A DNA stretch of 59,869 bases from Thermoactinomycetaceae bacterium (GTDB lineage Bacteria; Bacillota; Bacilli; Thermoactinomycetales; Thermoactinomycetaceae). The position numbers and the translations under genes were made by a program. Position 1 is the stretch's first letter; each line of letters opens with the position of its first letter. The notes below the pieces were generated by a model that saw only the letters and a list, made by a program, of their open reading frames with translations, was not told the origin of the DNA and searched no databases. This document shows positions 617 through 51,554 of this stretch, one piece after another. Location of the stretch: assembly GCA_025449975.1 (NCBI GenBank), contig JANWIG010000045.1:1-59869 (forward strand), given 5' to 3'.

Positions 617-1000
617 TTAGTCTTGCTCTATGGTCTTGGCGTATTCCTCCGAGGAGAGAAGTTGATCCAAATCAGCCTCATTGGACATTTCAATCACGAT
701 CATCCAGCCATCGCCGTAAGGAGATTCATTTACTTTCTCAGGTGAATCTTCTAGGGATTCGTTGATTTCTATTACTTTTCCGCTAACGGGAGCATAAAGT
801 TCGGAAACGGTTTTGACCGATTCCACATTGCCAAACACTTCACCTGCGGAAAGCTCTTGTCCAACTTCTGGAAGTTCGACAAAGACAATATCACCTAGTT
901 CGGATTGGGCAAAGTCCGTAATACCAATCCGTGCGAGTTTTCCCTCTTTTTTAACCCATTCATGTTCGGCTGAATATTTAAGTGTTTGTGGTAGATTCAT
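617..1000 (-). CDS. gcvH: Glycine cleavage system H protein
   Basis: A 127-residue lipoyl carrier that shuttles the aminomethyl group between the P, T and L proteins of the glycine cleavage system. In many Firmicutes it also relays lipoyl groups to other enzymes. The lipoylation site is plain: a Lys in [15 protein letters not shown] at about residue 62, in the usual hairpin. Length is normal for the family. It stands alone without gcvT or gcvP, as in Bacillus subtilis (yusH). The start ATG is 7 nt after the end of a 43-nt inverted-repeat element, and an AAGGAGG site lies on the far side of that element (1055-1061), so translation initiation here may depend on the hairpin. No glycine riboswitch is visible upstream. 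Confidence 0.97.
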
Positions 1001-1007
1001 ATTTACT

Positions 1008-1050
1008 CCGTTACGAAAAACTGAGCCGTGTCTGTATTCTTCGTAAACGG
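1008..1050 (-). mobile_element. 43-nt terminal-inverted-repeat element between RBS and ATG of gcvH
   Basis: On the minus strand the element begins CCGTTTACGAA and ends AGTTTTTCGTAACGG, so its ends can pair into a stem of about 11 bp. Upstream is AAGGAGG plus 4 nt; downstream are 7 nt and the gcvH ATG. The same ends and the same spacing recur at 35916-36214 and 51027-51159. It looks like a minimal miniature transposable element or a structured leader. Confidence 0.7.
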
Positions 1051-1142
1051 ATTTCCTCCTTCCGATACACTCTCGTTGATAAGAGATTTCTACAAATTTT
1101 TATATCTTTTTTCACTATGAGCCAATCTTTTACTTATTATCC

Positions 1143-1200
1143 CCGTTACGAAAAACTTATAAAACTCGTTAAGAGCTTCTGTTTTCTTCCTGATTCATCG
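1143..1200 (-). repeat. Solo right end of the same repeat family
   Basis: On the minus strand this copy holds GATGAATCAGGAAG, AAACAGAAGCTC and TTTTTCGTAACGG in the same order as the right end of the element at 35916-36214. It can be read as DESGRKQKLL and, after a few codons, SFS-stop, resembling a worn tail of a TnpB-type transposon gene. No left end is recognisable next to it. It lies in the space between gcvH and the thioredoxin-fold gene. Confidence 0.6.
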
Positions 1201-1263
1201 TCTTGTGACTAAGATGCTCATTTGCAAGTCTTAAACATGATAATCAGTAAAGAGGTTCTTTAT

Positions 1264-11594: not shown

Positions 11595-12533
11595 CTAGTC
11601 TGCAAACGCCTTTAAAATTTGATTCTTTCTTTCGCGACTATTTAGAGCCAATGATTCTCTGATCGCTTGATCTCTTTCTTCCGGAGTAATCAGGGGATCA
11701 AAAGAGTCATTGTTATTGGCCATGACGGCTAACACTTTATTGACGCGCTGGCGAAGATTCTCTCGTGTTTCCGCACTGCGATAAGGATCAAACACACCCG
11801 GACCATTGATAATCGATACCAAAATCGCAACCTCTTGGGGAGTTAACGTCTCTTTATCCAACTCTTTTCCAAAATAAGCTTTCGCTGCCAAATAAACGCC
11901 TTGAATCTGATTTCCAAACTCAATTCCATTTAAATAGGTCTCCAGTATTTTATCTTTACTAAATTTTCTATCTAAATTCCATGCGACGGCGATCTCATTT
12001 AACTTCCGTGACATTTTTTGGGCATGGCTTTCGATCACGACATTCCGAGCCACTTGCATCGTAATCGTACCGCCACCTTGTTTTTCACCCAACAGCGTCT
12101 TGAGTGTAGCTCGGACCAAGGCAGAGTAGTCGACACCATCATGCCGATAAAAGCGAACATCTTCTACCTTAACAAAGGCATTGACCAGCATATCATTTTT
12201 GATACGAATTTTTTCAATCGGGATAAATTGGAAATAAATATCTTGATTATTTTTCTGAATAATTCGAGGACCTTGTGCCAGCTGATTCACTCTATCTAAC
12301 TTTTGAAATTGGGCAGCAAGCAACAGAGAACTGACAAAACCGGCCACCAGTAGGCTAGAAGTCGTAATAACGAGGAGAAACCATTTCCAATTAAATAGCT
12401 TGAGCCAGATTGGACGTCTTCGTCTTCTTCGTTTTGATGTTTTGGATGATGTTTCGATCACATTTATTCTCGCACTGCGAACCTTCGGAAGATATTCGAT
12501 CTTTCCTCTGGTTTGATCATAATCATCACGCAT
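11595..12533 (-). CDS. GT51 glycosyltransferase-only PBP paralogue
   Basis: A 312-residue type II membrane protein containing only the peptidoglycan glycosyltransferase (GT51) domain. A basic cytoplasmic N-terminus with PKVRSARI precedes a membrane segment at about residues 51-73. The catalytic Glu is in KVEDVRFYRHDG (about residue 124); motif 2 reads GGGTITMQVARN, and the second acidic motif is in NEIAVAWNLDR. The protein ends soon after the domain, with no linker or transpeptidase. It is much closer to its class A neighbours than to a classical monofunctional MtgA, so it looks like a shortened duplicate. It is the last of five tandem paralogues. Confidence 0.92.
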   Translation of the reverse strand: MRDDYDQTRGKIEYLPKVRSARINVIETSSKTSKRRRRRRPIWLKLFNWKWFLLVITTSSLLVAGFVSSLLLAAQFQKLDRVNQLAQGPRIIQKNNQDIYFQFIPIEKIRIKNDMLVNAFVKVEDVRFYRHDGVDYSALVRATLKTLLGEKQGGGTITMQVARNVVIESHAQKMSRKLNEIAVAWNLDRKFSKDKILETYLNGIEFGNQIQGVYLAAKAYFGKELDKETLTPQEVAILVSIINGPGVFDPYRSAETRENLRQRVNKVLAVMANNNDSFDPLITPEERDQAIRESLALNSRERKNQILKAFAD

Positions 12534-12663
12534 ATATTTTCTTCCTTTCTAGTCATTTCCTTCCATCATAAAATATCTATTTTTATTTTGAAACCTTTCT
12601 GTTTAAAATGTCCTTTTTAAAGATACTACCCGCTCTCTTACAAATTCAACCTCTCCACATAAA

Positions 12664-12689
12664 AAAGTCCAGCACAAGGGCTGGACTTT
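12664..12689 (-). terminator. Terminator of the 855-residue PBP gene
   Basis: AAAGTCCAGC / GCTGGACTTT stem, with a T-run in the minus-strand direction. Its core resembles the terminator at 15418-15439, consistent with duplication of gene plus terminator. Confidence 0.85.
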
Positions 12690-12702
12690 GCTATCGCGAT
12701 AT

Positions 12703-15270
12703 TTAATTGGAAATGGTCACTTGGATGGTAGCTGTTTTTTGGTTATTTGGATGGTTTGCATCGATGACTGTAACCCGATAGTAATAACTCTTCTCTCTAC
12801 CAAAGAACGATAACGCCCGATCCCAAAAACCTAGCTCGCCAACCTGATCGACATAACTGGTCGTAATCAGTTCGCGGGCAATCACTTCAAAATTCTGATT
12901 GTCTTCGGAACGCTCCACCATGTATTTGACTCCCTCTCCGGCATTTGTCCAGTTTAAGCTTACTTTTCCATCGCTATATTCACCTTTGACATCGATTTGT
13001 GGCAATGGAATGGCTGGATCACTGACCCCTTCCGGTCGAACAAATGCTTTCGGTGGTGTACCTTGAAGCGCAGTCGACATAATCTGCGAAAAAATACGGG
13101 CTGGAGCACCTGCACCGGTGATCTGATATTTTTCAGGTTGAGCACTACCTCCCTGCTTTTGATACTCTTCGAGATCCCCCGGCATCCCATTAAAGACGGT
13201 TACCGCCGTTACATACTCCGGCGTAAAACCGACAAACCAACCTTTATCTTTATTCTGCGTCGTTCCACTTTTACCAGCTACTTGCCGTCCGTCCACTAAA
13301 CGGGCCGACTTCGTCCCATCTGCGTCCATAATGTTGTTACGAAGCATTCTCGTCATATACCAAGCTGTCTGTTTATCGAAAACTTCCTTCGCTGTATATT
13401 CGGCTTTTACTGTCGTTTCTTCCTTCTCATCGGGGAGCTTTCCTTTTACTTCACGAATCACATGGGCTTCAAAATATTGACCTTCGTTGAGGAACGTAGC
13501 ATAAGCTTGTGCCATATCTTTGGTAGAAACCCCTTTGGTCAGACCTCCCAATCCGAGTGGTGAGTACTGTTTATCTTCGGCTACCAAAGGCAGACCCAAC
13601 TTTTTGCCATACTCAAAAGCTTTGTCTAGACCCACATGGTCTTTCAAAAGCCAAATCGTTGAGGCATTCAATGAGTACTTTAAAGCATTGCCCATGCTAA
13701 TATCTCCATAATACTTCAAATCAAAGTTTTGAATGGTTTTGCCACTGACGGTAATCGCCTCGTCTTTGAGCATCGTATTTTCATTAAATCCTCTTTCCTG
13801 TACAGCTGGAGCAAAAACAGTGAGCGGTTTGATCGTCGAACCAGGTTGATGCTGGTCAAAGGCTCGATTCCGCGTCAGCTTGGCTTGAAAATAACGACCT
13901 CCCCCAATGGCAACAATCGATCCATCTTTGGGATTGATCACCGTTACTCCCGCTTCTACTGCTCCGACAGGCATCTTTTTCCCATCAAAACTAATAAAAT
14001 TGTTCTCATTTTTTAAGGCCGCTTCCACCGCAGCTTGTACCTTAGGATCAATATTTGTATAGATTTTTAACCCACTTGTATTTAACTTATCATACTCAAA
14101 CTGTGGGTATTTTTCTTTCAATTCTTTTTCTATCAAATCGTCAAATGGGGTCGCCATGTATTTTTTCACATGGGCATTGAAATTAGATTCTGGTTGGATG
14201 TTGAGAGGAGCCTCTTGCCATTTTTTCTTCTCTTCCTCTGTGATCAATGGTTCCATCTCATTCTCTTCGGCCATCTCCGCTAAGACAACTTTTTGGCGTT
14301 GCTTTAATCGTTCTTTTCCCGTCTGCCCTGTACTATCCAATTTTGTACGATAAGGATTGTATCCGCTCGGGTTCTTGGGCAAACCCACTAAAATCGCCAC
14401 TTCACCAGGAGTTAACGACTCTTTGGTTAAGTCTTTATTAAAATACGCTTTTGCCGCCAATTGAACGCCATAAATGTTGTTTCCAAAGGTAATATGGTTG
14501 ATATACGCTTCTAGAATTTGCTCTTTCGTGTATTTTCTTTCCAGATTTAGAGCTACAGCCATTTCGCTTAATTTTCGGCTCATCGTCTGTACATAGCTTT
14601 CCAAGACCACATTGCGTGCCACTTGCATGGTAATCGTACCACCGCCTTGGGTTCGATCTGTAAAAATCGCCATGACGACAGCACGCATCAGTGCATAATA
14701 ATCAATCCCATTGTGCTGGTCAAATCGCACATCCTCAACTTTCTTAAAGGTCTCCACCAATAAATTGTTATGCTTTCTTAACTCACTAATCGGCACAAAC
14801 TCATACTTCTTTTTCTTCAACCTCGCAAACTCTTTATTGCTTTTATCGTAAATAATCGCTGAGGTATCTTGCTGATTCATTTTTTCGATGGGTAAGAAAC
14901 TACTACTGAGAACGATCGTTACCATTAATCCAACTACCAATAAGGTAGCCGTGGCAAAGACAAGGGCAAACCATTTCCAGTTAAAAAGCTTCAACCATTT
15001 ATATTTAGGAAGTAATTTGCCATTTTCCGCACGGGGAGAAGCCACTTGGGCAGGTTCCGAAACGGTCTTGCGCTCTGCCTTGCGCGGTTGTAATTTGGTA
15101 ATCTGTTCTCGAATCTTCTGCCATAGTGGCTGTTCTTGATTGGCGTTTTGCACTGGTTGTGATTTTGCGTTCTGTTTTGCCTTTTGTTTTGCCGTTCTTT
15201 CTTTGGCTTCCATTCTCCCGCTGCGAATTTTTGGTGTAAAATCGTCCTCTTTTTTCTTTCTGCTCAACAT
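12703..15270 (-). CDS. Class A penicillin-binding protein with fibronectin-like C-terminus
   Basis: An 855-residue bifunctional peptidoglycan synthase. A cytoplasmic N-terminus of about 100 residues starts with FTPKIRSGR and is rich in Lys and Gln; the membrane segment is at about 101-123. The GT51 Glu is E179 in KVEDVRFDQH. The transpeptidase motifs are complete: S478-T-I-K481, SLN at 533-535 and KSG at 667-669. A fibronectin-III-like module fills about 765-855. GT51 polymerises lipid II and the transpeptidase cross-links the stem peptides outside the membrane. It has its own terminator, and so may be transcribed separately. The paralogue upstream is very similar. Confidence 0.95.
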   Translation of the reverse strand: MLSRKKKEDDFTPKIRSGRMEAKERTAKQKAKQNAKSQPVQNANQEQPLWQKIREQITKLQPRKAERKTVSEPAQVASPRAENGKLLPKYKWLKLFNWKWFALVFATATLLVVGLMVTIVLSSSFLPIEKMNQQDTSAIIYDKSNKEFARLKKKKYEFVPISELRKHNNLLVETFKKVEDVRFDQHNGIDYYALMRAVVMAIFTDRTQGGGTITMQVARNVVLESYVQTMSRKLSEMAVALNLERKYTKEQILEAYINHITFGNNIYGVQLAAKAYFNKDLTKESLTPGEVAILVGLPKNPSGYNPYRTKLDSTGQTGKERLKQRQKVVLAEMAEENEMEPLITEEEKKKWQEAPLNIQPESNFNAHVKKYMATPFDDLIEKELKEKYPQFEYDKLNTSGLKIYTNIDPKVQAAVEAALKNENNFISFDGKKMPVGAVEAGVTVINPKDGSIVAIGGGRYFQAKLTRNRAFDQHQPGSTIKPLTVFAPAVQERGFNENTMLKDEAITVSGKTIQNFDLKYYGDISMGNALKYSLNASTIWLLKDHVGLDKAFEYGKKLGLPLVAEDKQYSPLGLGGLTKGVSTKDMAQAYATFLNEGQYFEAHVIREVKGKLPDEKEETTVKAEYTAKEVFDKQTAWYMTRMLRNNIMDADGTKSARLVDGRQVAGKSGTTQNKDKGWFVGFTPEYVTAVTVFNGMPGDLEEYQKQGGSAQPEKYQITGAGAPARIFSQIMSTALQGTPPKAFVRPEGVSDPAIPLPQIDVKGEYSDGKVSLNWTNAGEGVKYMVERSEDNQNFEVIARELITTSYVDQVGELGFWDRALSFFGREKSYYYRVTVIDANHPNNQKTATIQVTISN

Positions 15271-15417
15271 TTTTCACCCCATTCCATCTAGATCCTTCCC
15301 ATCCCCTTTTCCAGCATAATCATCTATCTTGTAAATTCTTTCTGTTTCAAATATATAGTTATCATTGTTACTACCCTTTGATCACTCAATTGGAACCTAC
15401 CTAGCAAAAAAAAGGAA

Positions 15418-15439
15418 AGTCCAGCAACTCTGCTGGACT
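15418..15439 (-). terminator. Terminator of the 873-residue PBP gene
   Basis: AGTCCAGCA / TGCTGGACT stem with a minus-strand T-run (CCTTTTTTTTG) after it. Confidence 0.85.
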
Positions 15440-15445
15440 ATCATC

Positions 15446-18067
15446 TTATCGAGGGTTAAAAAATTGGTCAAACCATCCGCCCCTCCCGGGTCGTTCTCTA
15501 TCGTGACCGCCACCACCGTTGCCATCCCCGTTATTTGGATTGTTATTCTCATTCTCTCCATGCGGATTGTTTCCGTCACCGTTTGCGGGTGGTGATTCTT
15601 CCTCTTGTTTTTTATCATCGGTTAAGGAGACCTTCACGGTACCCGTTTTATGATTATTGGGGTTTTCAGGATCAGTTGCTGTAACTTGATAATAAATCAC
15701 TTTCTCTTTCCCAAAGATCGATAATGCTTGATCAAGGAAACCTACTTCTACTTTATCAACAAAACTCGTATCTTTCAAATCGGTAGCAATCTCTTGATAA
15801 TTATTACCATCTTCGGAACGAGCTACTTTATAAACCACATTTTTGCCCGCTTCGTTCCAATTCAATTTTACTTCGCCATTTTTATAGGAAGCTTTGACAC
15901 GAAGCTCTTTAAGTGGGGCTGTAGGATCACTCACGCCTTCTGGCTTCACAAATTTCTTCTTCGGCTTACCCTCGTGGGCTTTATTCATGACGGTACGGAA
16001 TACATTGGCTGGTGCACCTGCTCCCGTAATATCATAATGTCGGTCTTTTTTATCACCATTTAGATTCGGTTCATTATACACATTGACCGCTGTTAGCAAA
16101 TCCGGTGTAAAGCCAACGAACCATCCTTTGTCTTTTCCTTGCGTCGTTCCACTCTTACCAGCGACTTCCCGATCACCCGATAGTCGCGCACTCGCTGTTC
16201 CATTGCGATCCATGATGTTATTGCGCAGCATCCGTGTCATATACCAAGCCGTTTGTTTAGAAAAGACTTGGACAGGCTCATATTTGGCCTCAATCTTCCG
16301 GTCTTCATCTTCGCCTGTCACCCGTCCCTCAACTGCTGTCACCAAATGGACAGGGAAATATTTCCCTTCATTGAGGAAAACGGAGTACGCCTGAGCCATA
16401 TCCAAAGTGGATACCCCTTTGGTTAACCCTCCTAATCCAAGTGGCGAAGGGTTTTCATCCTCCGGTTGAAGAGGCAAGCCTAGCTTTTTCCCAAATTCAA
16501 ACGCTTTCTTGTCCGTTACGTAATTTTCTAGCAACCAAATGGTGGAGGCATTGAGGGATTTTTTCAAAGCTTCTCCCATCGTAATATCTCCATAATATTT
16601 TAAATCAAAGTTGTTAATGACCTTACCCCTCACTTCGATTTTCTCATCTTTCAACATCGTATATTCATTAAAACCTTGATTCAGCTCAACAGCAGGAGCA
16701 TATACGGTAAGAGGTTTAATCGTTGATCCCGGCTGATGCTGGTCAAAAGCTCGGTTTCGCGTTACTTTCGGCTGGTAATAGCGCCCACCCCCGATGGCAA
16801 CAATCGTACCATCTTTGGGATTGATCACAACCGCACCGGCTTCTACCTCGGATCGAGGCATTTTCTTATTGGTTCCCCATTCACGGAACAAATCATTGTT
16901 TTGCAAGGCATCGGTCAAAGCTTTTTGCACTTTGGGATCAATATTGGTATAAATTTTTAACCCACTACTACTTAATTGTTTAAATTGAAACTCAGGAAAT
17001 TTCTCTTTAATCTCTTCAGCAATCAAACCATCAAATGGCGTAGCACGCGTTTTTTGTGTATATTTTTCTACGTTTGCTTTCGGCTGAAGCGGAAGTTTCT
17101 TTTCACTCCATTCCGCTTCTTCTGCTTCTGTAATCAGCGGATCCATATCGTCTTCACGTGCCATAATCATCAAAACCGTCCGTTGCCGCTTTTTTAAACG
17201 TTCTTTGTGTTCTTCCCCACGATATGGATTGTACCCCTCGGGTGCTTTCGGCAACCCTGCCAAGATCGCCACTTCACCAGGCGTTAACTTATCTTTGGTC
17301 AGATCTTTATTAAAATAAGCTTTTGCTCCCGCTTGGACTCCCCGCAAACCGTTTCCCATCGGGATATTATTTAGATAAGCTTCCAAAATCCGGTCTTTTC
17401 CATATTGGCGCTCTAAGTTCCAAGCCACGGCAATCTCTTTTAACTTCCGCGTGATGGTCTGCTCAATATCATCCAATACAACGTTCCGAGCGACCTGCAT
17501 CGTAATCGTTCCGCCACCTTCACGTTTCCCCATAAAGATGTTTTTTACAAAAGCACGTGCCAGCGCTTGAAAATCGACCCCTCCATGGTCATCAAAACGA
17601 GCATCTTCTACTTTTTTAACGGTCTCTACTAATAATTCATTATGCTTCCTCATCTGTTCAAGGGTGAGAGGCTCGACCAATTCTTTATTTAATCTTGCAT
17701 ACTCTTTTCCATCTTTGTCATAAATAATCGCCGGCGTATACTTCTTATCCATTTGCTCCAGTGGCAAAAACTCTGCACTCAACATAAGCGCGGTAGCAAA
17801 ACCACCCATCAGTAATACAGCTGTAGTAATAACGAGTAAGAACCACTTTAAGCTAAATAATTGCAACCATTTATTTTTGGGTGGTCCGGGTGTTCGCCTA
17901 CCACCTCCACCTGAGCCGGAAGGAGGTTGCTTTTTATTGGGAATGGGCAATTTATCACGAATTTTATCAAAAAAACCTACGTTTCGTGTACGCGTTGGAC
18001 TCATCCCAATCTTTCTTCTCCGTAAGCGTGGTGAAAAAGAAACATCTCTTCTCGTGTTATCCTCCAT
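15446..18067 (-). CDS. Class A penicillin-binding protein with fibronectin-like domain and Gly/Asn tail
   Basis: An 873-residue bifunctional PBP. The basic N-terminus begins with FSPRLRRRK, followed by a membrane segment near residue 90. The GT51 Glu is in KVEDARFDDHGG; the transpeptidase motifs PGSTIKPL, KSLNAST and AGKSGTTQ are intact. A fibronectin-III-like module follows. The last 50 residues are low-complexity, with Gly, Asn, Pro and charged residues, and end RGGWFDQFFNPR. The ATG at 18067 has GGGGGA and 6-nt spacing; an ATG eight codons earlier overlaps that site. The tail may reach into the wall or bind a partner. Confidence 0.94.
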   Translation of the reverse strand: MEDNTRRDVSFSPRLRRRKIGMSPTRTRNVGFFDKIRDKLPIPNKKQPPSGSGGGGRRTPGPPKNKWLQLFSLKWFLLVITTAVLLMGGFATALMLSAEFLPLEQMDKKYTPAIIYDKDGKEYARLNKELVEPLTLEQMRKHNELLVETVKKVEDARFDDHGGVDFQALARAFVKNIFMGKREGGGTITMQVARNVVLDDIEQTITRKLKEIAVAWNLERQYGKDRILEAYLNNIPMGNGLRGVQAGAKAYFNKDLTKDKLTPGEVAILAGLPKAPEGYNPYRGEEHKERLKKRQRTVLMIMAREDDMDPLITEAEEAEWSEKKLPLQPKANVEKYTQKTRATPFDGLIAEEIKEKFPEFQFKQLSSSGLKIYTNIDPKVQKALTDALQNNDLFREWGTNKKMPRSEVEAGAVVINPKDGTIVAIGGGRYYQPKVTRNRAFDQHQPGSTIKPLTVYAPAVELNQGFNEYTMLKDEKIEVRGKVINNFDLKYYGDITMGEALKKSLNASTIWLLENYVTDKKAFEFGKKLGLPLQPEDENPSPLGLGGLTKGVSTLDMAQAYSVFLNEGKYFPVHLVTAVEGRVTGEDEDRKIEAKYEPVQVFSKQTAWYMTRMLRNNIMDRNGTASARLSGDREVAGKSGTTQGKDKGWFVGFTPDLLTAVNVYNEPNLNGDKKDRHYDITGAGAPANVFRTVMNKAHEGKPKKKFVKPEGVSDPTAPLKELRVKASYKNGEVKLNWNEAGKNVVYKVARSEDGNNYQEIATDLKDTSFVDKVEVGFLDQALSIFGKEKVIYYQVTATDPENPNNHKTGTVKVSLTDDKKQEEESPPANGDGNNPHGENENNNPNNGDGNGGGGHDRERPGRGGWFDQFFNPR

Positions 18068-18304
18068 CTCTGTTCCCCCTTGGTACAGCATAAACGATGA
18101 GAAAAGGCACTGCTCACTTGTGTTGTCTTAATCTTTATCTATAGTAGAAAAAGCAACCATTTTACCGCTAAAATGATCAAAAAGAGTTTCCCTGAAATAA
18201 CACTACTCATTATAGCTTAAAATGGTCTTTAAATGGTGTCATCTTTACAAAAACTAGTTAGATTCATTCATCGTTCACTCATTTTTATCATTTGTACAAA
18301 AAAA

Positions 18305-18403
18305 GAACGACGAATATTACAGAATATTCCGTCTCGAACAGAATGCCCGTTTTTATCGGTTTTTCTGTCGTCAACCACAAATTCTGTAAATGATTCGTCG
18401 TTC
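18305..18403 (-). terminator. Unusually long hairpin terminator of the pseudo-PBP gene
   Basis: Arms of 21 and 23 nt (GAACGACGAATATTACAGAAT at 18305-18325 against 18381-18403) pair almost completely around a loop of about 55 nt. The minus-strand transcript then enters a run of seven T. It lies 31 nt after the stop codon at 18434. The loop itself contains GACGACAGAAAAA and CCGATAAAAACGG. Confidence 0.7.
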
Positions 18404-18433
18404 GATTCACCTAGGATAAAACGAAAAAAGCCT

Positions 18434-20431
18434 TTAGCGCACCGACGCTTCTGTCCATTCATTTTGCAACATAATTTCCCGAAACAATTGCGCTGGAACC
18501 CCATCGACTGACAAGTGGTAAAGTTCCTCATCTTCCTTTTGTCCATACTGATGAACAATCACAGTTGTAAGTAAATCCGGCGTATAACCTACAATCCAAG
18601 CTTGCTTTTGATCCTTTGTGATCGCACTTCTGCCGACGACATTGGGTAGTCTCGCCTGGGTGGGGAGCGACTGTGTAAATAGAGCATTGATCTGCGCAGC
18701 GATTTTGGGTTGGAACACCTGTTTTTGTGGATTATATAATTGGATCCTCTCTTCCCGACCATCCGGATAGGGAAACTTAATCTCGCGAATAATAAAAGCG
18801 GGTCGGTATGTCCCTTGATTGGCAAATACCGTATATGCTTGAGCAACTTCTTTGCTAGAAACCCCTTTATTCATCTCTCCTAATCCCAAAGCAAAGTAAT
18901 TTTCATCTTCTGTTTCAATCGGAAGACCTACGCGCTTGCCATAGGCAACCGCTGTATTTAACCCAATCTGATTAAGCAATTGCACAGTGGGAGCATTGAG
19001 AGATTCTTCCACCATTTTCTGAAAAGTGACTACACCCCGTACAGGCTGATTTCCATTATCGATCTTTCTTTCTTTGACGGTAAAAGGTTCATCCTTGACT
19101 AAGGAAGAAGCTCTTAGTCCTTCTTCTTCCATCGCTGGTCCATAGACCGTCAAAGGAGCCAAAATCGAACCAGGCGGATGTTTTTCCAAGGCACGATGCC
19201 GATAACCTGGACGATATTGTCGCCCGCTACCAACCGCGACAATACTGCCATCTTGAGGGTTGAGCACCGTAATTCCGGCATCCACCTTTTCCTTTGGCAT
19301 CTTTCTCCCCTGCTGATCGACAAACAGCTCATCTTTTTCTAACAGCTCATTGACCTTCTGCTGCATTTTGGGATCGATCGTGGTATAAATTTTAAGATCA
19401 TTATTAAACAGCTCATCCCCTTGCAGATGGGGATACTTCCGATTGATCTCTTCTCTAATTAACTCAAGAAATGGAAGATTGGCTATCTTCCTTTTATACA
19501 TAGCTAGATTGGACGAATCCTTGATCGGTAATGCTTCCTTGCTCCAATATTCCTTCTCCTTTTGCGTAATGAGGGGAGGCATCTCATCTTGACGAGCCAT
19601 TACTGCTAAAACCGTTGTCTGCCTTTTTTTTAATCGCTTTTTGTTGGCTTCTCCGCGATAAGGATTGTAGAGCGTCGTTCCTTGAGGCAAACCAGCGATG
19701 ACGGCTATTTCACCTGGATTTAGCTGATCTTTTTGCAGGTCTTTTCCAAAATATACTTTCGCAGCCGTCTGCACACCATAAATATTGTTACCAAACTCAA
19801 TTCGATTGAGATAGGCTTCTAGAATCTTCTCTTTCCCTTTGTCACGTTCCAAATTGAAAGCGGCTGCCATCTCTTTTAGTTTGCGACTAAGGGTTCTCTC
19901 CTGTGTACCAAGCACCACTTTCCGCGCCACTTGCATGGTGATGGTGCTGCCCCCTTGTTCTCCTTGACCTGTCAGTGTCGAGACAAGTGAGCGAAATAAG
20001 GCGTAAAAATCAACCCCGTTATGCTTATAAAAGCGAGCATCTTCTACCTTAATGATCGTCTCTACGAGGCGGCTATTTTTCTTCATTAAATCCTCTAACG
20101 AGATAAATTCATGGTAAATTTCCCTTTTTCCGACCGGATCTCGTTCCTTTGCCAATTGGATCAGCGGTTGGTTGCGATGATCATACAGCATCACACCCCC
20201 TTCATCGATCCTCTCTAAGGGCAAAAACTCTCCAGTCAACCAGATGGAGCCTGCCAGACCTACCATTAAAAGCAATGAAGAGCAAAAAACCAATAAAAGC
20301 CATTTTGCAACAAATCGAAGCCGCCATCTCCCTTCTGGCGGCTTAACAGGTGGTGATGAGGATGGGATCGTTCTTTTTTTCGTTTGAAGCCGTACACTAC
20401 GCACTTTCGGCATAAATCCCTCATCCGCCAT
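18434..20431 (-). CDS. Class A PBP homologue with degenerate transpeptidase
   Basis: A 665-residue paralogue. The N-terminus has FMPKVRSVR and the membrane segment is at about 43-65. The GT51 half is intact (E130 in KVEDARFYKH; STITMQVAR). In the transpeptidase half the active-site motif aligned with STIK of its neighbours reads S422-I-L-A425, so the catalytic lysine is replaced by Ala. The SLN motif (477-479) remains, and KSG is R601-S-A. It should therefore polymerise glycan but not cross-link. It also lacks the fibronectin-like module. The frame is uninterrupted, so the change is probably maintained. Start ATG at 20431 follows GGAGGG by 6 nt. Confidence 0.93.
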   Translation of the reverse strand: MADEGFMPKVRSVRLQTKKRTIPSSSPPVKPPEGRWRLRFVAKWLLLVFCSSLLLMVGLAGSIWLTGEFLPLERIDEGGVMLYDHRNQPLIQLAKERDPVGKREIYHEFISLEDLMKKNSRLVETIIKVEDARFYKHNGVDFYALFRSLVSTLTGQGEQGGSTITMQVARKVVLGTQERTLSRKLKEMAAAFNLERDKGKEKILEAYLNRIEFGNNIYGVQTAAKVYFGKDLQKDQLNPGEIAVIAGLPQGTTLYNPYRGEANKKRLKKRQTTVLAVMARQDEMPPLITQKEKEYWSKEALPIKDSSNLAMYKRKIANLPFLELIREEINRKYPHLQGDELFNNDLKIYTTIDPKMQQKVNELLEKDELFVDQQGRKMPKEKVDAGITVLNPQDGSIVAVGSGRQYRPGYRHRALEKHPPGSILAPLTVYGPAMEEEGLRASSLVKDEPFTVKERKIDNGNQPVRGVVTFQKMVEESLNAPTVQLLNQIGLNTAVAYGKRVGLPIETEDENYFALGLGEMNKGVSSKEVAQAYTVFANQGTYRPAFIIREIKFPYPDGREERIQLYNPQKQVFQPKIAAQINALFTQSLPTQARLPNVVGRSAITKDQKQAWIVGYTPDLLTTVIVHQYGQKEDEELYHLSVDGVPAQLFREIMLQNEWTEASVR

Positions 20432-20569
20432 CTTTCTCCCTCCATCTCGCAATAAAATATTTATTTGTTAAGCTGATTGACTTTCCCGTAGATACAAAAT
20501 TTTCGTTCCTCTTTTATAACATACCATGTCATCTGTCAAAGTTGTAGCCTCTCCTTTTGTCGCAATGAA

Positions 20570-20597
20570 AAACCCCAATGCGTTGGCATTGGGGTTT
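20570..20597. terminator. Terminator of the 900-residue PBP gene
   Basis: ACCCCAATGC / GCATTGGGGT stem with T-runs on both sides, directly after the stop at 20604. Confidence 0.85.
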
Positions 20598-20603
20598 TTT
20601 TTA

Positions 20604-23306
20604 TTACCACCAGAATCGCGGTAGGATGACATTCGGAGGAGGTGTGATCACAGGTGGCTCTTCAGGCTCCGGTTCTTGCGGAGGCTCCTCATCTCCTGGA
20701 TCTTGTGGATCTTCTTTGTATTGTCCTGGGATGTGGGCACAAGCAGCCGTGCTACCATTTTCATTTAAACATTCTATATAGTCTCTGCGACACTGCCGTT
20801 CATTCGATGTACCTTGACAAGCCTGACGCGCCAGCCCTTCACATTTTTCTCGATCTCTACTACAATCAATCCGATTGGGATCTTCTTCATCATCCTCTTT
20901 CGGACAACCTGGAGTATCTGGTTTCTCCTCACATTGCTGTTTACATTTCTCTTCATCGTAATCGGGACTATCTTTATCGCAGTAGTTTTTCTCTTCTTTG
21001 GACGCGCCAATCGTAATTGTCAGAACCGCTGATTGCAACGTTTCTCCTGTTTCTTTGTTTTCTGCTTTTACTTGGTAAGCATACGTTTTACCTACTTCTA
21101 CATTGGTATCCGAGTAGCTGTTTCCGGTGACTCCAGGTACGGCGTTGGTTGGTTCCCCTTCTCCGCGATAAAGCTGATAGGTAAATCCTTCACCGAGGTC
21201 TGTCCAACTTAATTGAATCGCTTTGCTTTCTTCATTGTATTGTCCTGTCAACTGAAGTGCGTCATCTGCTTCCTCTTTTGGCGGTGCTGGTTCTTCCACT
21301 CCGGATGGACGTTTGAAGTCTTCGATCGGGTCTCCCTTGGTCACTTCAGACATAAATTCACTAAAAATTTTGGCTGGAACCCTACTGGCGACCGGTGTGA
21401 TCGGCTGACTTACATTAAACACATTAACTGCCGCAATATACTCGGTTGTATAGCCGACAAACCAAACATCTTTTTCGTTCTGACTGGTTCCCGTTTTACC
21501 AGCAGTTGGACGCCCATCTTTGATTTGAGCAGCTGTTCCACTTCCATTTTGAACAACCATCTTCAGCATCCGCGTCATATAATAAGCGGTTTTTTCCGAA
21601 AAGACATCTTTGGTCTCTGGCTTATGCTTGTACGTTTTTTCATCAATCGGGTCATAGATTTCACGAATCGTAAAGGCCTTTTTAAATTTCCCATCACTTT
21701 GTGGAAAAACCGTATAAGCTTGTGCCATATCTAAGGTAGATACCCCTTTGGTTAAACCTCCCAAAGCCAAAGGTGAAATGTTCTTGTCCTCTGGCAACAA
21801 GGGGAGTTCCAACAGATCCTTCGCATAGTGATAAGAAGTATCCAACCCTACTTTTTCTCGTAACATGTCCACCGTAGAAGCATTTAACGAGTTCATGACA
21901 TTGGTCTTAAACTCGATCTCTCCATAATACCTTCCGGTAAAGTTCCGAATCTGTTTCCCGTCCACCGTTGTTGGCTTATCGACGATCTTTGTATGCTCAT
22001 TGTACCCATGCTTTTCGATCACCGGCGAATAGACCGTCAATGGCTTGATCGACGAACCTGGTTGAACGGGCTCTAACGCTCGATTTAAAGAACCTTTTTG
22101 ATACTGACGTCCTCCTCCTACGGCGACGATGGAACCATCCTTACGCAGAACAGTAATTCCTGCATCTATTTTATTGGGATTGATTAGCTTATTGGACGTA
22201 TCTACATACAAATCATGATTTTTGAGTACTTTATCCACAGCCTGTTGTACTTTTGGGTCAAGATTGGTTCGAATCGTCAAACCATGCGAAATCGAATTGT
22301 CGTTTAGCTCTCCTTTACTTTCCAACAGCTCTAACTCATTTCTCACTAATTGCAAATAAGCAGAGCCTTTTTCCCGTAAATGTTCTTTATGATATTGCGC
22401 CTGTTCTTCAATCCGTTTTTCACGGAACTTACCCGCCTCATCAACGGTAATCAGCGCTCCCATTTCATCTTCTTCCCGTGCCATGATCCCCAAGACCGTA
22501 TTCCGACGCTCTTCCGAACGCTTTCGGGTTTTTATATTTTGCGATACTGGATTATACATCGACGGAGATTTGGGTAGTCCGGCCAAAATGGCAACTTCTC
22601 CCGGAGTCAATGTATCTTTGTTAAGGTCTTTATTAAAGTAAACTTTCGCAGCCAAGCCTACTCCCCGAATTTGCGGATGGAAATTGATGTAGTTGAGATA
22701 AGCTTCAAGAATTTGGTCTTTGCTATAATTTTTACCTAAGTTCTGAGCGATCGCAAATTCCCTGATTTTACGGGTATACGACTTCTCTTTGCTATTTAGA
22801 ATAATATTACGAGCGACTTGCATGGTAATGGTTCCGCCACCCTCTGCTTTCCCCATTGCCACGATATTTTTTAACACTGCCCGTCCCAGTGCATAGTAGT
22901 CAACTCCATCGTGTTGATCAAAGCGGACATCCTCCACTTTTTTAATGGTATCGATCAACATTGGATTGGTTTTTTTCAATGTTTCCAACGTGACCAGCTC
23001 ACGGTCATCGCCGCCTTCCACTGTTAATCGTCCGATTTCTTTATTATTTACATCAAGGACCACCGAAGAATACTGAATCTTTTTTAATGCATCCAAGGAA
23101 TATTCTTCCGTTGTCATATAAATATAGGCTGCCCAACAACCGAGGACCACTCCAACCACGAAGGAGCCGATGAAAAACCATTTGAAAAACAATTTGAACC
23201 CACCAAAAAAATCACGAATCCAATTTCCACCATTATTCCCATTTGTTTTACGAGAAAGGCGTTTCCTTCGTGATAAAGTAGGTTGGTTCTGATGAAAGTC
23301 ATTCAT
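20604..23306 (-). CDS. Class A penicillin-binding protein with Cys-rich C-terminal tail
   Basis: A 900-residue bifunctional PBP and the first gene of the five-gene array. After a short basic N-terminus, a membrane segment lies at about 37-65. The GT51 domain has KVEDVRFDQHDG and GGGTITMQVARN. Transpeptidase motifs are PGSSIKPL, NSLNAST and AGKTGTSQ. A fibronectin-III-like module follows. The last 110 residues hold ten cysteines in acidic, Pro-rich surroundings, then a Pro/Glu tail ending PRFWW. The Cys-rich region would be outside the membrane and could form disulfides or bind metal; none of the four neighbours has it. It also lacks their PKVRS-type N-terminal motif. Confidence 0.95.
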   Translation of the reverse strand: MNDFHQNQPTLSRRKRLSRKTNGNNGGNWIRDFFGGFKLFFKWFFIGSFVVGVVLGCWAAYIYMTTEEYSLDALKKIQYSSVVLDVNNKEIGRLTVEGGDDRELVTLETLKKTNPMLIDTIKKVEDVRFDQHDGVDYYALGRAVLKNIVAMGKAEGGGTITMQVARNIILNSKEKSYTRKIREFAIAQNLGKNYSKDQILEAYLNYINFHPQIRGVGLAAKVYFNKDLNKDTLTPGEVAILAGLPKSPSMYNPVSQNIKTRKRSEERRNTVLGIMAREEDEMGALITVDEAGKFREKRIEEQAQYHKEHLREKGSAYLQLVRNELELLESKGELNDNSISHGLTIRTNLDPKVQQAVDKVLKNHDLYVDTSNKLINPNKIDAGITVLRKDGSIVAVGGGRQYQKGSLNRALEPVQPGSSIKPLTVYSPVIEKHGYNEHTKIVDKPTTVDGKQIRNFTGRYYGEIEFKTNVMNSLNASTVDMLREKVGLDTSYHYAKDLLELPLLPEDKNISPLALGGLTKGVSTLDMAQAYTVFPQSDGKFKKAFTIREIYDPIDEKTYKHKPETKDVFSEKTAYYMTRMLKMVVQNGSGTAAQIKDGRPTAGKTGTSQNEKDVWFVGYTTEYIAAVNVFNVSQPITPVASRVPAKIFSEFMSEVTKGDPIEDFKRPSGVEEPAPPKEEADDALQLTGQYNEESKAIQLSWTDLGEGFTYQLYRGEGEPTNAVPGVTGNSYSDTNVEVGKTYAYQVKAENKETGETLQSAVLTITIGASKEEKNYCDKDSPDYDEEKCKQQCEEKPDTPGCPKEDDEEDPNRIDCSRDREKCEGLARQACQGTSNERQCRRDYIECLNENGSTAACAHIPGQYKEDPQDPGDEEPPQEPEPEEPPVITPPPNVILPRFWW

Positions 23307-29562: not shown

Positions 29563-33794
<4,232 letters not shown>

Positions 33795-35290: not shown

Positions 35291-35908
35291 TCAACCTTGA
35301 GACCGGTTCTTTTCCTTCGCAGCTTTTTGCCAAGCCAATCGTTTTCGTCTGATCCTCTCTTTTCTTCTCTCCCTCCTCTTTTCCAGCAAAAAGAGGAGAT
35401 TTAACCCTGCTGTCAAAACAATACTAGTGATTATCTGAATCCCCAAATGAATTTGGACATCCGGTTTCCAGAAAAGCGCCATCATCCAATAAACCAAAAT
35501 AAAAAAAGGGACATTCATAATCGAAAGAAAAAGAGCCCACTTTCGCGATGTCTCTTTTCTCTCAATCAGCAACATCCATGGAGAAAACAAAAGAATTATC
35601 CAGCTAATCAACATATACCAACGAACGGTTGTCACATCATCGGGGTTGATGGATAAGTCCAAATACCTTTCCAAAAGAAAGAGGAGTACCCGTAATACAA
35701 TCATGATAACAAAAGGCAAAATCACTCCAGCAAAAAGTCCGAGAAAAAAAGCTTGAACTACTTTTCGCTTCTTTTTTATAGCAGAGTAAACTTCACGGGA
35801 GATTAGCACAACAACGCCGATGGCTAGTAAAAACAATTGCTCCCATGGAATCTTGTTCGCATATAGATCCTGAAAGAAATAGATGAGCTCCTCAAACACA
35901 AGTTCCAT
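35291..35908 (-). CDS. Membrane protein, paralogue of 36314-36952
   Basis: A 205-residue protein with about five hydrophobic helices and a basic Arg/Lys-rich C-terminal tail. It is not recognised but is a paralogue of the next gene upstream: shared blocks include FFLGLFAG, RWYML, NVPFFILVYW and FWKPDVQ. The ATG is immediately downstream (7 nt) of the inverted-repeat element 35916-36214; the nearest AAGGAGG lies on the other side of that element. Confidence 0.82.
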   Translation of the reverse strand: MELVFEELIYFFQDLYANKIPWEQLFLLAIGVVVLISREVYSAIKKKRKVVQAFFLGLFAGVILPFVIMIVLRVLLFLLERYLDLSINPDDVTTVRWYMLISWIILLFSPWMLLIERKETSRKWALFLSIMNVPFFILVYWMMALFWKPDVQIHLGIQIITSIVLTAGLNLLFLLEKRRERRKERIRRKRLAWQKAAKEKNRSQG

Positions 35909-35915
35909 AATTATC

Positions 35916-36214
35916 CCGTTACGAAAAACTCATCAAACGCCATAAGAGTTTCTGTTTTCTTCCTGATTCATCGTGTCCTGCCGCACCATTTATTGTACTG
36001 TCGGTTGATCGAACACTCCACAGGTATCCATTCCCGTGTAGCTCACGGTGCCCATTCATGATATCCGATCCTAGACGGATCATGAATGAAAATTTGATTA
36101 GTTTCATCCTTTTTCTATCTAGAAGCACCTCACGGTAGCGATTCGATGATGATACACTTACCCCCTGCATCAAAATTACTTCTAGATAGAGACATTTTCG
36201 TTTTTCGTTAACGG
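35916..36214 (-). mobile_element. 299-nt inverted-repeat element between RBS and ATG
   Basis: On the minus strand it begins CCGTTAACGAAAAAC and ends GAGTTTTTCGTAACGG. Inside are a perfect CTATCTAGAAG / CTTCTAGATAG hairpin, an imperfect ATTCATGAT/ATCATGAAT hairpin and, at the right end, a frame reading AAGHDESGRKQKLL and later MSFS-stop that resembles the tail of an IS200/IS605-type TnpB. It is flanked by AAGGAGG plus 4 nt and by 7 nt plus ATG. I read it as a TnpB-element remnant, or a non-autonomous derivative of one. Confidence 0.65.
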
Positions 36215-36313
36215 ATTCCCTCCTTCCTATCTACACTTCATTTATAAGGAGATTTTGATCATTTTTCTAACTGTGATCTAGCTTCTCCACTCGATTTTAA
36301 GTGACTGTTTTTT

Positions 36314-39475: not shown

Positions 39476-41002
39476 GTGAAGAAGAAGGTATTTACTTTTT
39501 TCGTAGTCGGCGCTCTAGCTTTGGCTGGATGTTCGACTGAACCTGAACCACAGCCAGGTCCAGATTCGGGCTCAGTAAAACCTCCTCAATTGGACAAACA
39601 AGCCGCAACACAGGAGGAAGTCAATGATGCGGTTGAAAATGTTACTTATTATGATGAAGAGGAAACAACCCCGATCAAACCGGCAAGTGCACCAGAAGCA
39701 GAAGAAGTAATTAAGAAGAAGTTAGCAAAATCAAAAGAAAAAGTGAAAGAAGATCCAGAAGATCAAAAGTATCGTGATTTTGTAAGTGGTTTGTTGGCCA
39801 GCGGAGAAAATTTATCCGATAAAGAGCGGAAAGCATTATTGGAATATTGGAAGTACCTCGGTTCAATCGAAAGTAAACAAGCTAATGAAAAGATTAAACA
39901 AATTCTAAAGAAATTAAAAGAGGGCAAAGGTACGAAAGCGGATGTAGAAGAATTGAAAGGGCTACAACCGATCAAACCCGGTGTTGAGCTAAAAGATGAT
40001 AAAAAACCAAACAAACACCAAGATGAAGATGATGAGCTAGTACCAGAGCCAAAGTTTAGCGGAGATCCCGCACACAGAGGCGATCAAATTGGACCAGAGC
40101 CAAAGTTTAGCGGAGATCCCGCACACAGAGGCGATCAAATTGGACCAGAGCCAAAGTTTAGTGGAGATCCCGCACATAGAGGCGATCAACTAGTACCAGA
40201 ACCTAAGTATAGCGGAAACCAACCAAATGATGACGATCAACCAGGTAATAACAATGAGCAAGATCAACCTGGCAACAACGAACAAGGCAATGACAATGAG
40301 CAAGATCAACCTGGTAACAACGAACAAGGCAATGACAATGAGCAAGGTCAACCTGGCAACAACGAACAAGGCAATGACAATGAGCAAGGTCAACCTGGCA
40401 ACAACGAACAAGGTAATGACAATGAACAAGGTCAACCTGGCAATAATGAAGGCAGAGATCGCGACAAAGATAAGGACGAAGATAAAGACAAAGACAAAAA
40501 TAAAGAGAAAAACGGCTACGATCGAAAAGCAGCTAAAGAATACGCCTATCAATGGTGGAACAAACGAAACAATGAAGAGTTTGGCTACTACAGCAGAGTG
40601 TGGGGCGGATGCTACGATTGTTGGTATGACTGCACAAACTTCATTTCTCAAGTAGTTTATAAGGGTGGAATCAAACAAAGAACAAGCGGATCAAACCTTT
40701 GGTTCTACTCGGACAATGGTCCACATAACGCTTGGGGAGTAGCAAACTCGTTCTATAACCACTTTAAAAACCGCGCTAAATTGGTTCAAAACAAAAGTGA
40801 TCTAAAAATTGGTGACGTAATCGCTTTTGACTTTGATTCCAACAATCGGGTCGACCATACTGCAGTGGTTACCAAGCTCACTGAACATGGTGTTTTTGTA
40901 ACTCAACACACCTATGACAAAAAAGATTCCAATATCATTTCTTGGTTCTATACACCAGGTGCAAAACTCTATGCCTTTGATATGGGATCAGCTGACAACT
41001 AA
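39476..41002 (+). CDS. Repeat-rich lipoprotein with Amidase_6-like domain
   Basis: A 508-residue secreted lipoprotein, starting at GTG with GGGAGAGGAAG upstream. The lipobox is LALAGC at about residue 19. An acidic and helical region covers about 40-190. It is followed by three copies of a 17-residue repeat with KFSGDPAHRGDQ plus a partial fourth, then about five 14-residue repeats of the NDNEQGQPGNNEQG type, and a charged linker. The last 160 residues are an Amidase_6 (CHAP-like) domain with Cys in YDCTNFISQ and His in RVDHTAVV. It may cleave peptidoglycan at the cell surface. The repeats form a hydrophilic spacer. A terminator follows. Confidence 0.9.
   Translation: MKKKVFTFFVVGALALAGCSTEPEPQPGPDSGSVKPPQLDKQAATQEEVNDAVENVTYYDEEETTPIKPASAPEAEEVIKKKLAKSKEKVKEDPEDQKYRDFVSGLLASGENLSDKERKALLEYWKYLGSIESKQANEKIKQILKKLKEGKGTKADVEELKGLQPIKPGVELKDDKKPNKHQDEDDELVPEPKFSGDPAHRGDQIGPEPKFSGDPAHRGDQIGPEPKFSGDPAHRGDQLVPEPKYSGNQPNDDDQPGNNNEQDQPGNNEQGNDNEQDQPGNNEQGNDNEQGQPGNNEQGNDNEQGQPGNNEQGNDNEQGQPGNNEGRDRDKDKDEDKDKDKNKEKNGYDRKAAKEYAYQWWNKRNNEEFGYYSRVWGGCYDCWYDCTNFISQVVYKGGIKQRTSGSNLWFYSDNGPHNAWGVANSFYNHFKNRAKLVQNKSDLKIGDVIAFDFDSNNRVDHTAVVTKLTEHGVFVTQHTYDKKDSNIISWFYTPGAKLYAFDMGSADN
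40040..40217 (+). repeat. 51-nt tandem repeat in the lipoprotein gene
   Basis: Three nearly identical in-frame units (40040-40090, 40091-40141, 40142-40192) and a partial, diverged fourth. Units 1 and 2 are almost identical, a sign of recent expansion. Confidence 0.85.
40259..40446 (+). repeat. 42-nt tandem repeat in the lipoprotein gene
   Basis: About 4.5 in-frame units of 42 nt starting at 40259, 40301, 40343, 40385 and 40427, differing mainly by GAT/GGT changes. They encode an Asn/Gln/Gly/Glu-rich spacer. Confidence 0.85.
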
Positions 41003-50725: not shown

Positions 50726-51019
50726 TCACGCAAATAAATCAAACACTTTACCAAAAATCAATGTTTGTCCATCCATTTCGATGACTCGTCCATCTAACAA
50801 CTTCAGCTCAATCTCTTTTCCTTCATCTGTCATCATGGTCACCAACAACGATTCACGAGGCTTTTTCTCGACCTGTACGGTTGCCCCCACCCGTACTTGC
50901 CCTTTATGAAAATGATCCTTCTCGCGATAATGAGCGATCACTTCATACTGCCTGTGGGCACTTAGCTCCTGAAAAAACGTTTGGACCTCATCTGGATTTC
51001 CTCTGACAAATAGTTTCAT
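50726..51019 (-). CDS. Small protein with RGNPDE N-terminus
   Basis: A 97-residue protein that opens MKLFVRGNPDEVQTFFQEL followed by YEVIAHYREKD, the third with the same N-terminal layout; the last 50 residues are beta-rich. The preceding ATG at 51025 has no room for a binding site; the ATG at 51019 is exactly 7 nt after the inverted-repeat element 51027-51159, with AAGGAGG on its far side. Function unknown. Confidence 0.72.
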   Translation of the reverse strand: MKLFVRGNPDEVQTFFQELSAHRQYEVIAHYREKDHFHKGQVRVGATVQVEKKPRESLLVTMMTDEGKEIELKLLDGRVIEMDGQTLIFGKVFDLFA

Positions 51020-51026
51020 CTTCATT

Positions 51027-51159
51027 CCGTTACGAAAAACTTATGAAAATCTTTCCTGATTCATCGGATCCCCTTTTTACCTTACTCCCTATTCTGTTTG
51101 CTGTAGATCTCCATCGAAGCTATTTTCTCTTTGATCCTCTTCAAGTTTTTCGATCACGG
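51027..51159 (-). mobile_element. 133-nt inverted-repeat element between RBS and ATG
   Basis: On the minus strand it begins CCGTGATCGAAAAAC and ends AAGTTTTTCGTAACGG. Near the right end it carries GATGAATCAGGAAAG, as in the copy at 35916. AAGGAGG plus 4 nt precedes it, and 7 nt separate it from the ATG at 51019. It contains a 22-codon GTG frame (51158 to 51093; VIEKLEEDQRENSFDG) directly behind the AAGGAGG, which could be translated. Confidence 0.6.
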
Positions 51160-51554
51160 CTACCCTCCTTGCCTATTAAATTTGTGCGAACTTTCCACCT
51201 GACTAACTCTATACCTAGTTAGTAGAAGGTTAAGGAATAAAAGTTCCCTATAATACTTTTTACTAGAAATGATATGCGCTATGATTTGCCTAATAGTTCG
51301 GCTAGTTGTTAAAATTTCCATAACGCAATTATTCCATAAAATGGGTGATCTGGCAAATTTTAAAAACTATATCTAAATCTCCTGTTTTTTCCTTTAAATC
51401 TGGAAAATCTACCCTGTTTTCGTAGAAAAATGACCATATTATTGTCAAGAAATTGCCTAATTTAAAAAAAACGACAAAAACCAATCAACTACTTAAGTCC
51501 AAGTAGCACAACCAAAGTGAATCAGATCACCCATTCTTCATTTACACAAATAAA

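Follow-up and report, generated by a model that had tools for sequence, protein, structure and literature searches.

Decayed IS607-family transposons in front of start codons: a probable transposon-borne Shine–Dalgarno sequence and stem in a Thermoactinomycetaceae bacterium

In the genome of a Thermoactinomycetaceae bacterium, short elements with paired ends stand between a strong Shine–Dalgarno sequence (SD) and the start codons of unrelated genes. Sequence comparisons make it very probable that these elements are decayed copies of IS607-family transposons, and that their stem brings an SD of transposon origin to a distance of about 11 nt from the start codon of the host gene, so keeping the invaded gene translated. 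According to the mechanism proposed here, an IS607-family transposon (with a serine TnpA, the RNA-guided nuclease TnpB and a RAGATH-18 guide RNA) would insert between the SD and the start codon of a gene, because its target motif is the SD core. It would bring a spare SD inside tnpB and, some 4 nt further on, an arm able to pair with its own right end. Once transcribed into mRNA, arm and right end would anneal, looping out the intervening sequence, and the stem would leave some 11 nt between the transposon-borne SD and the start codon of the host gene, where ribosomes would still start. In the host copies the remainder has mostly decayed, whilst the SD and the stem would have been preserved, the host gene having come to depend on them. 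The arrangement of the elements, their ancestry, the target rule (taken together with a published motif), the conservation of the SD and arm and their co-variation are all documented below at the level of sequence.

Three elements in the window

The window, that is the whole stretch of DNA analysed (59,869 nt), contains the following features.

1055..1061, minus strand: AAGGAGG, the SD of the gcvH element, followed by AAAT; element-borne by homology with other copies
1008..1050, minus strand: gcvH element, 43 nt, a bare hairpin in sequence, with left arm CCGTTTACGAAGAA and right arm TTTTTCGTAACGG
617..1000, minus strand: gcvH (TIGR00527, 177.7 bits), its ATG 7 nt past the 43-nt element
1143..1201, minus strand: right-end remnant of another copy, recognised by the right-end motif
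36219..36225, minus strand: AAGGAGG, the SD of the second element by sequence, followed by GAAT
35916..36214, minus strand: second element, 299 nt, arms scoring -16.4 kcal/mol as a duplex
35291..35908, minus strand: ORF 3' of the second element, 205 aa, membrane-protein-like, no Pfam match
51164..51170, minus strand: AAGGAGG, the SD of the third element by sequence, followed by GTAG
51027..51159, minus strand: third element, 133 nt, arms scoring -16.8 kcal/mol as a duplex
50726..51025, minus strand: ORF beginning MKMKLFVRGNPDE, 3' of the third element, 99 aa from the nearer ATG, its end reckoned from this length

An earlier note on this DNA had reported three inverted-repeat elements, and their coordinates, lengths (43, 299 and 133 nt) and spacings to SD and ATG were all confirmed, each element lying on the minus strand. 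AAGGAGG plus 4 nt precedes every one of them and 7 nt plus an ATG follows, so that 4 nt from SD to stem base and 7 nt from stem to ATG add up to 11 nt; the third has an additional in-frame ATG 1 nt past its end. The arm duplex of the gcvH element scores -14.8 kcal/mol, its right arm being the old right end of the transposon. Allowing up to three mismatches, the 16-nt right-end motif has five matches in the window against 0.69 expected (0 of 100 shuffles reach five), of which that at 31594 (plus strand, three mismatches) looks like a chance occurrence. The remnant at 1143..1201 has no left arm in the 1.4 kb upstream and no long ORF behind it.

The second element includes a RAGATH-18-like stretch (35960-36024) that at 40.5 bits falls under the Rfam threshold of 44.9. 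No RAGATH-18 match is found in the 43-nt and 133-nt copies, no TnpB domain (PF07282 or PF01385) in any of the three, and no match of any Rfam family at the gathering threshold in the window. We read the three as deletion derivatives of a tnpB-bearing element, on the strength of comparison with the fuller copies described below.

Copies across the host genome

The search that the earlier note had called for, using both end motifs across the host genome and recording distances, showed that the pattern is genome-wide, with a start codon 4–11 nt behind the right end. The 23 copies tabulated have the form AAGGAGG-4 nt-CCGTT..CG...CGTAACGG-4 to 11 nt-start codon with small variations (for example AGGGAGG and AGGGGGG in the SD, CGTGACGG and CGCAACGG in the arm). 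They range from 43 to 590 nt in length, and their arm duplexes from -14.6 to -22.1 kcal/mol. An ORF of at least 30 codons with an ATG, GTG or TTG start lies behind the right end in 21 of the 23; one of the others has a 26-codon ORF and the other an ORF with ATT as the sole candidate near the right end. At locus L030 (C42), a SpoIID/LytB-like ORF is without ATG, GTG or TTG near the right end and has an ATT at 8 nt that is possibly its start.

Allowing one mismatch, the right-end pattern has 22 matches in the whole genome and its reversed control a single match. AAGGAGG (in two cases AGGGAGG or AGGGGGG) and a left arm are present within 600 nt upstream of 19 of these matches, the three without being 1143, C25:23513 and C34:71238. 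The left-end pattern AAGGAGGnnnnCCGTTnnCGAAAAAC, with up to three mismatches, gives 23 matches as against none for its reversed control. Among 60 relatives the right-end pattern occurs zero to three times per genome, one occurrence being the sister element described below. The genes downstream are unrelated and include ffh, proS, the CCA-adding enzyme gene, rlmB, ftsK and gcvH, along with efp as a contig-end fragment; ffh and proS are essential.

Four copies have neither a RAGATH-18 match nor an open tnpB, and all four keep the SD and the stem (gcvH, 43 nt; C47, 79 nt; C18, 114 nt; C54, 126 nt), two of them still holding scraps of tnpB. The hairpin is also retained at C11:111542, although the right arm there departs from the consensus. 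No long ORF follows the arm-less copies at 1143, C34:71238 and C47:68986. In L027 (C25:23512/23513), a copy some 110 nt long, the left end comes after AAAGAGG and the right end 2 nt before an ATG; the internal SD and the arm are absent from this copy despite the ATG, making it the exception among the arm-less copies.

Two further types of RAGATH-18 element in the host, at L310/L152 (C55) and L159 (C11:4726), have a similar layout in front of start codons. Their arms, TTGCTACG/CGTAGCAA and GGCTAC/GTAGCC, were spotted by eye and the duplexes scored.

Ancestry of the elements

The fullest copies hold tnpB together with a RAGATH-18 RNA and the elements are therefore best described as decayed IS607-family transposons. 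In the C61 copy, whose right end lies 7 nt before ftsK, tnpB is open over 277 aa (PF07282, 58.5 bits; PF01385 is also matched) and is without a stretch that a 376-aa sister TnpB has. The RAGATH-18 of this copy scores 57.5 bits against the Rfam threshold of 44.9, and C55 (53.2 bits) and C47 (52.1 bits) also exceed that threshold in the host genome. The 586- and 590-nt copies can be read as coding for the C-terminal half of TnpB, followed by a non-coding end. A sister element in a related genome (G021, L143), located between AAAGGAGG and AAGACGATG, is apparently intact: it has an IS607 TnpA (NF033518, 221.5 bits), a TnpB that is 71% identical, RAGATH-18 and the same right end. A search for TnpA in the host genome gave just two short N-terminal matches (24.7 and 22.5 bits), for which reason the host copies look like fossils; as this search gave no such TnpA as the sister has, the window copies are classed as non-autonomous remnants, not as IS607/RAGATH-18 transposons proper. 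A search with the Y1 transposase profile (PF01797), made on the assumption that tnpB was of IS605 type, gave no match.

These fuller copies change the meaning of AAGGAGG. The earlier note had taken it to be the SD of the host gene; it is instead element sequence, and in tnpB-bearing copies it consists of tnpB codons. In the C61 copy the frame runs straight through it (N-K-E-G-S-R-Y-R-K-T). By homology, the SD before each copy belongs to the element, standing mid-tnpB in the tnpB-bearing copies and in intact relatives and being followed by the arm complementary to the right end. Insertion appears to have been targeted to the SD of the host gene itself, which would now be found at the left end, about 1.2 kb 5' of the right end in the largest copy (where it reads AAGAAGG).

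Conservation of the SD and the arm in related elements

The comparison drew on 102 RAGATH-18 elements whose right end could be recognised, taken from the host family, from a 398-genome sample of the class and from named contigs, mostly of Bacillota. Of 80 loci, 60 were scanned for RAGATH-18 and 45 were positive; further listed matches were used in part (L242-L270 in part), not all. The resulting 113 elements comprised 111 distinct ones, nine of which were dropped as having no AACGG/AGCAG right-end motif. L310, in which the AACGG/AGCAG rule misplaces the motif, was kept in the 102 and counts as a miss. Elements sharing 10-mers were grouped into clusters, which are not fully independent by descent; the loci were selected on similarity. 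Duplex scans over long windows proved too noisy and were replaced by scans with 15-nt right-end arms.

Within the 860 nt preceding RAGATH-18, the SD of greatest strength falls at the tnpB site in 73 of 99 elements and, in nine more that have no tnpB, at the corresponding position (three elements with too little upstream sequence were left out); the interval for the tnpB site makes up 11% of the stretch scanned. The best pairing partner of the right end is also at this site in 73/102 elements and 54/76 sequence clusters, as against 116/612 for right ends with their inner letters shuffled and the last five kept; in 29/102 elements it is elsewhere. Among elements with the best partner at the site, the SD just before the arm has a mean strength of -14.6 kcal/mol compared with -2.8 for the tnpB background, and all 73 SDs are within the top 5%. 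A joint SD+arm score reaches its cut-off at the site in 85/102 elements and in 100/204 with shuffled inner letters, and, being dominated by the SD, fails to discriminate the arm.

The match between arm and right end was examined with the site defined by the SD, since a first swap test, won by 54/54 clusters, was biased by having its site picked by the element's own arm. In the SD-defined test, which took in the 88 elements with a clear SD at the site and used for comparison the right ends of other clusters with the same last five letters, an element's own right end pairs better than those of other clusters in 58/67 clusters (mean 3.5 kcal/mol, p=1e-10). Arm and right end change together on both sides at several positions; for example, over 53 clusters, and leaving unpaired cells uncounted, position -2 is T-A in 23 and C-G in 21, and position -4 is T-A in 29 and C-G in 23.

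At the tnpB site the SD is read in all three codon frames with differing amino acids (42 clusters with an open frame), examples being AAG GAG GGA, GGA GGT GAA and GAA GGG AGG, and thus is not a by-product of one protein motif. The site favours AAG among lysine codons (p=8e-4) but shows no such shift to GAG among glutamate codons (p=0.86). Ten RAGATH-18 copies without a TnpB match, from three genomes (L271-L273 in G001; L290, L294, L295 and L300 in G012; L251, L285 and L286 in G022), have a strong SD and arm about 110 nt before the RNA, and are possibly independent shortenings that retained the device. When whole leaders (271–725 nt) are folded, the arms keep at least eight expected pairs in 58/73; the remaining 15, with fewer than eight predicted pairs between the arms, include the intact sister L143. 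Averaged over the folds, SD openness is 0.64. A start codon stands near the internal SD in cis in 14/85, in which internal initiation is thus possible.

Target motif and empty sites

AGGAG is the core of the SD. As far as the accessible part of PMC11061315 reports, it is also the usual target-adjacent motif of RAGATH-18-guided IS607 TnpBs (AGGAG in 18 of 22 strains, GAGGG in four), which would account for insertion between the SD and the start codon; IS607 insertions are described as occurring at GG in excerpts of PMC6188088. An ORF of at least 40 codons starts within 21 nt of the right end in 89/102 elements, at 5–11 nt in 75 of these, and no ORF of 40 codons is directly downstream in 13. The frequency of an ORF with ATG behind the right end is 72/102 as compared with 272/1980 for random positions. 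Each of eight left ends chosen by eye comes after GGAGG, GAGG or GAAGG; their boundaries are uncertain by up to 4 nt and not all are a perfect AGGAG. When related copies are aligned pairwise, the alignment stops precisely at the right-end motif for 19 of the 26 pairs, and no more than 2 nt away for 24.

The gcvH gene offers a view of the empty site. By eye, GGAGG (once GAGGGGG) is found about 7–10 nt before the ATG in 20 of 21 informative relatives, one further genome aligning only from residue 2. Both same-genus relatives have 7 nt between SD and ATG, which is the spacing of the right end to the ATG for the window copy. The remaining one of the 21 (G008) belongs to another genus, and its gcvH leader (L323, ~1466-1500) reads AAGGGAGG-AAAT-CCGTacataACGG-GAAAGA-ATG, with a 13-nt mini-hairpin between SD and start that may be either an older, further shrunken copy or an independent hit.

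Placement of the SD and comparison with phage T4

The elements have the sequence pattern of a split ribosome-binding site: a strong SD stands at too great a distance from the start codon, and the two are separated by a segment able to pair. In 15 copies the 20 nt before the start score only -2.5 to -8.4 kcal/mol, compared with -12.2 to -16.7 for three distal SDs. From sequence we infer that the arms pair inside cells and that ribosomes initiate from the distal SD. Phage T4 provides a precedent, in which, in the accessible portion of PMC3014915, a stem shortens the spacing of SD and AUG from 27 to 11 nt in gene 25 and from 22 to 5 nt in gene 38, and mutations that weaken the gene 25 structure lower translation. 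The likeness is that a stem between SD and AUG cuts the spacing, here to 4+7=11 nt in the window copies. In T4, by that account, only a short piece of the phage's own mRNA intervenes, whereas here the looped stretch is transposon sequence of 43 to ~600 nt that recurs in front of unrelated genes and is conserved across a clade of transposons.

Alternative explanations

The earlier note had offered three explanations: a mobile element that targets the spacer of the ribosome-binding site, a T4-like stem that brings the SD to the start codon, and removal of the element by IStron-like splicing. Two of these hold together, the mobile element being borne out by the RAGATH-18 and TnpB relics and the published target motif AGGAG, and the stem finding support, at the level of sequence, in a conserved SD and arm that covaries with the right end. 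Splicing, which would take the element out of the mRNA and join AAGGAGG to the start codon, is unsupported for these copies. IS607-family IStrons with GG-ending targets and CGG ends do exist, according to the available part of PMC4227781, and a group I intron (RF00028) is present in three elements of our own set (L196, L199 and L297) out of the 70/102 judged, each of which had 1950 nt or more of upstream sequence in the scan. A weak hit in L190 (40.6 bits against a threshold of 50) was not counted, and that element is outside the 102. No group I intron is found in the window at the Rfam gathering threshold, however, or at a looser threshold in four loci from the same genome (L096, L075, L074 and L102), and the smallest copies are only 43 (a hairpin) and 79 nt long. 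The three intron-bearing relatives are without the SD and arm: a strong SD+arm is at the site in none of them but in 58/67 other elements (p=0.004), a contrast that bears less on the arm, as the score is governed mainly by the SD. Two of them have no ORF beginning past the right end. Nine intron-free elements are also without a strong device, and two of these (L191 and L198) have right ends like two of the intron-bearing ones. On this evidence we regard splicing as very improbable.

A role for the stem within the transposon itself, in guide RNA maturation or the control of TnpB or TnpA, with the resemblance to an SD merely coming along, is somewhat easier to entertain and still unlikely. The pairing is present in tnpB-bearing elements and ends at the scaffold–guide junction, and the ten copies without a TnpB match do keep RAGATH-18. 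Yet SD and stem persist in copies that have lost both RAGATH-18 and an open tnpB, the SD is found in three codon frames, and the two of 11 RAGATH-18 hits in the host that were read as arm-less (C47:68986 and C34:71269) likewise lack a long ORF downstream. Least credible of all is host regulation, in which the leaders would be RNAs of the host that use the stem to mask or free the start region on a signal. A structured leader common to genes of many functions might suggest this, as might the 299-nt leader, which folds better than its own shuffles (z -2.8, 0/100), but the bodies vary from 43 to 590 nt, the downstream genes are unrelated, the SD sits outside the stem and the ancestry is that of a transposon.

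Relation to known elements and implications

The preferred reading, in which the stem serves to place a transposon-borne SD, combines parts that are each known (IS607, RAGATH-18 and the split SD) into a combination that we did not find in the open-access literature searched. Known IS607 transposons with RAGATH-18-guided TnpB, such as ISFba1, resemble the elements in TnpB, in RAGATH-18, in the IS607 TnpA of the sister, in G-ending junctions and in insertion after an AGGAG-like motif; they differ in that the host copies are decayed, with TnpA represented there by two short N-terminal matches. The accessible text of PMC11061315 mentions neither the identity of the motif with the SD nor an internal SD or arm, and has no match for Shine, ribosome or start codon. 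Likewise, the open-access literature searched yielded no text equating the motif of RAGATH-18 TnpBs with the SD or describing such transposons as carriers of an SD of their own. Group B IStrons (IS607 plus a group I intron, for example BcISt1) share, in excerpts of PMC4227781, the IS family, GG-ending targets, a device that renders insertion harmless and a stem enclosing the ORF region. They remove themselves by RNA splicing, whereas the intron-less copies described here would act on the placement of ribosomes.

More broadly, it is probable, with rather less assurance than for the host copies themselves, that a widespread clade of RNA-guided transposons in Bacillota targets ribosome-binding sites and carries a transferable SD and long-range stem, and that the host remnants have become obligatory leaders of core genes. 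Insertion into a ribosome-binding site should be very damaging, yet copies precede ffh, proS, ftsK and gcvH. If the reading is correct, the survival of a clade whose target motif is the SD would be explained by the replacement start site that it carries, and the transferable SD and stem would constitute a translation-level alternative to the self-splicing of IStrons, adding another route to harmless insertion beside safe sites and splicing. The natural loops of 43 to ~600 nt make long-distance split ribosome-binding sites testable, and for annotation they carry the warning that the SD of a gene may stand hundreds of nucleotides upstream.

Other repeats in the window

Two further repetitive regions were noted in the window. 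Positions 11595-23306 hold tandem penicillin-binding-protein-like genes with strongly repeated segments (the three genes tested have transglycosylase and transpeptidase domains), and positions 39980-40492 hold tandem repeats of 51 and 42 nt within the gene of an Amidase_6 protein.
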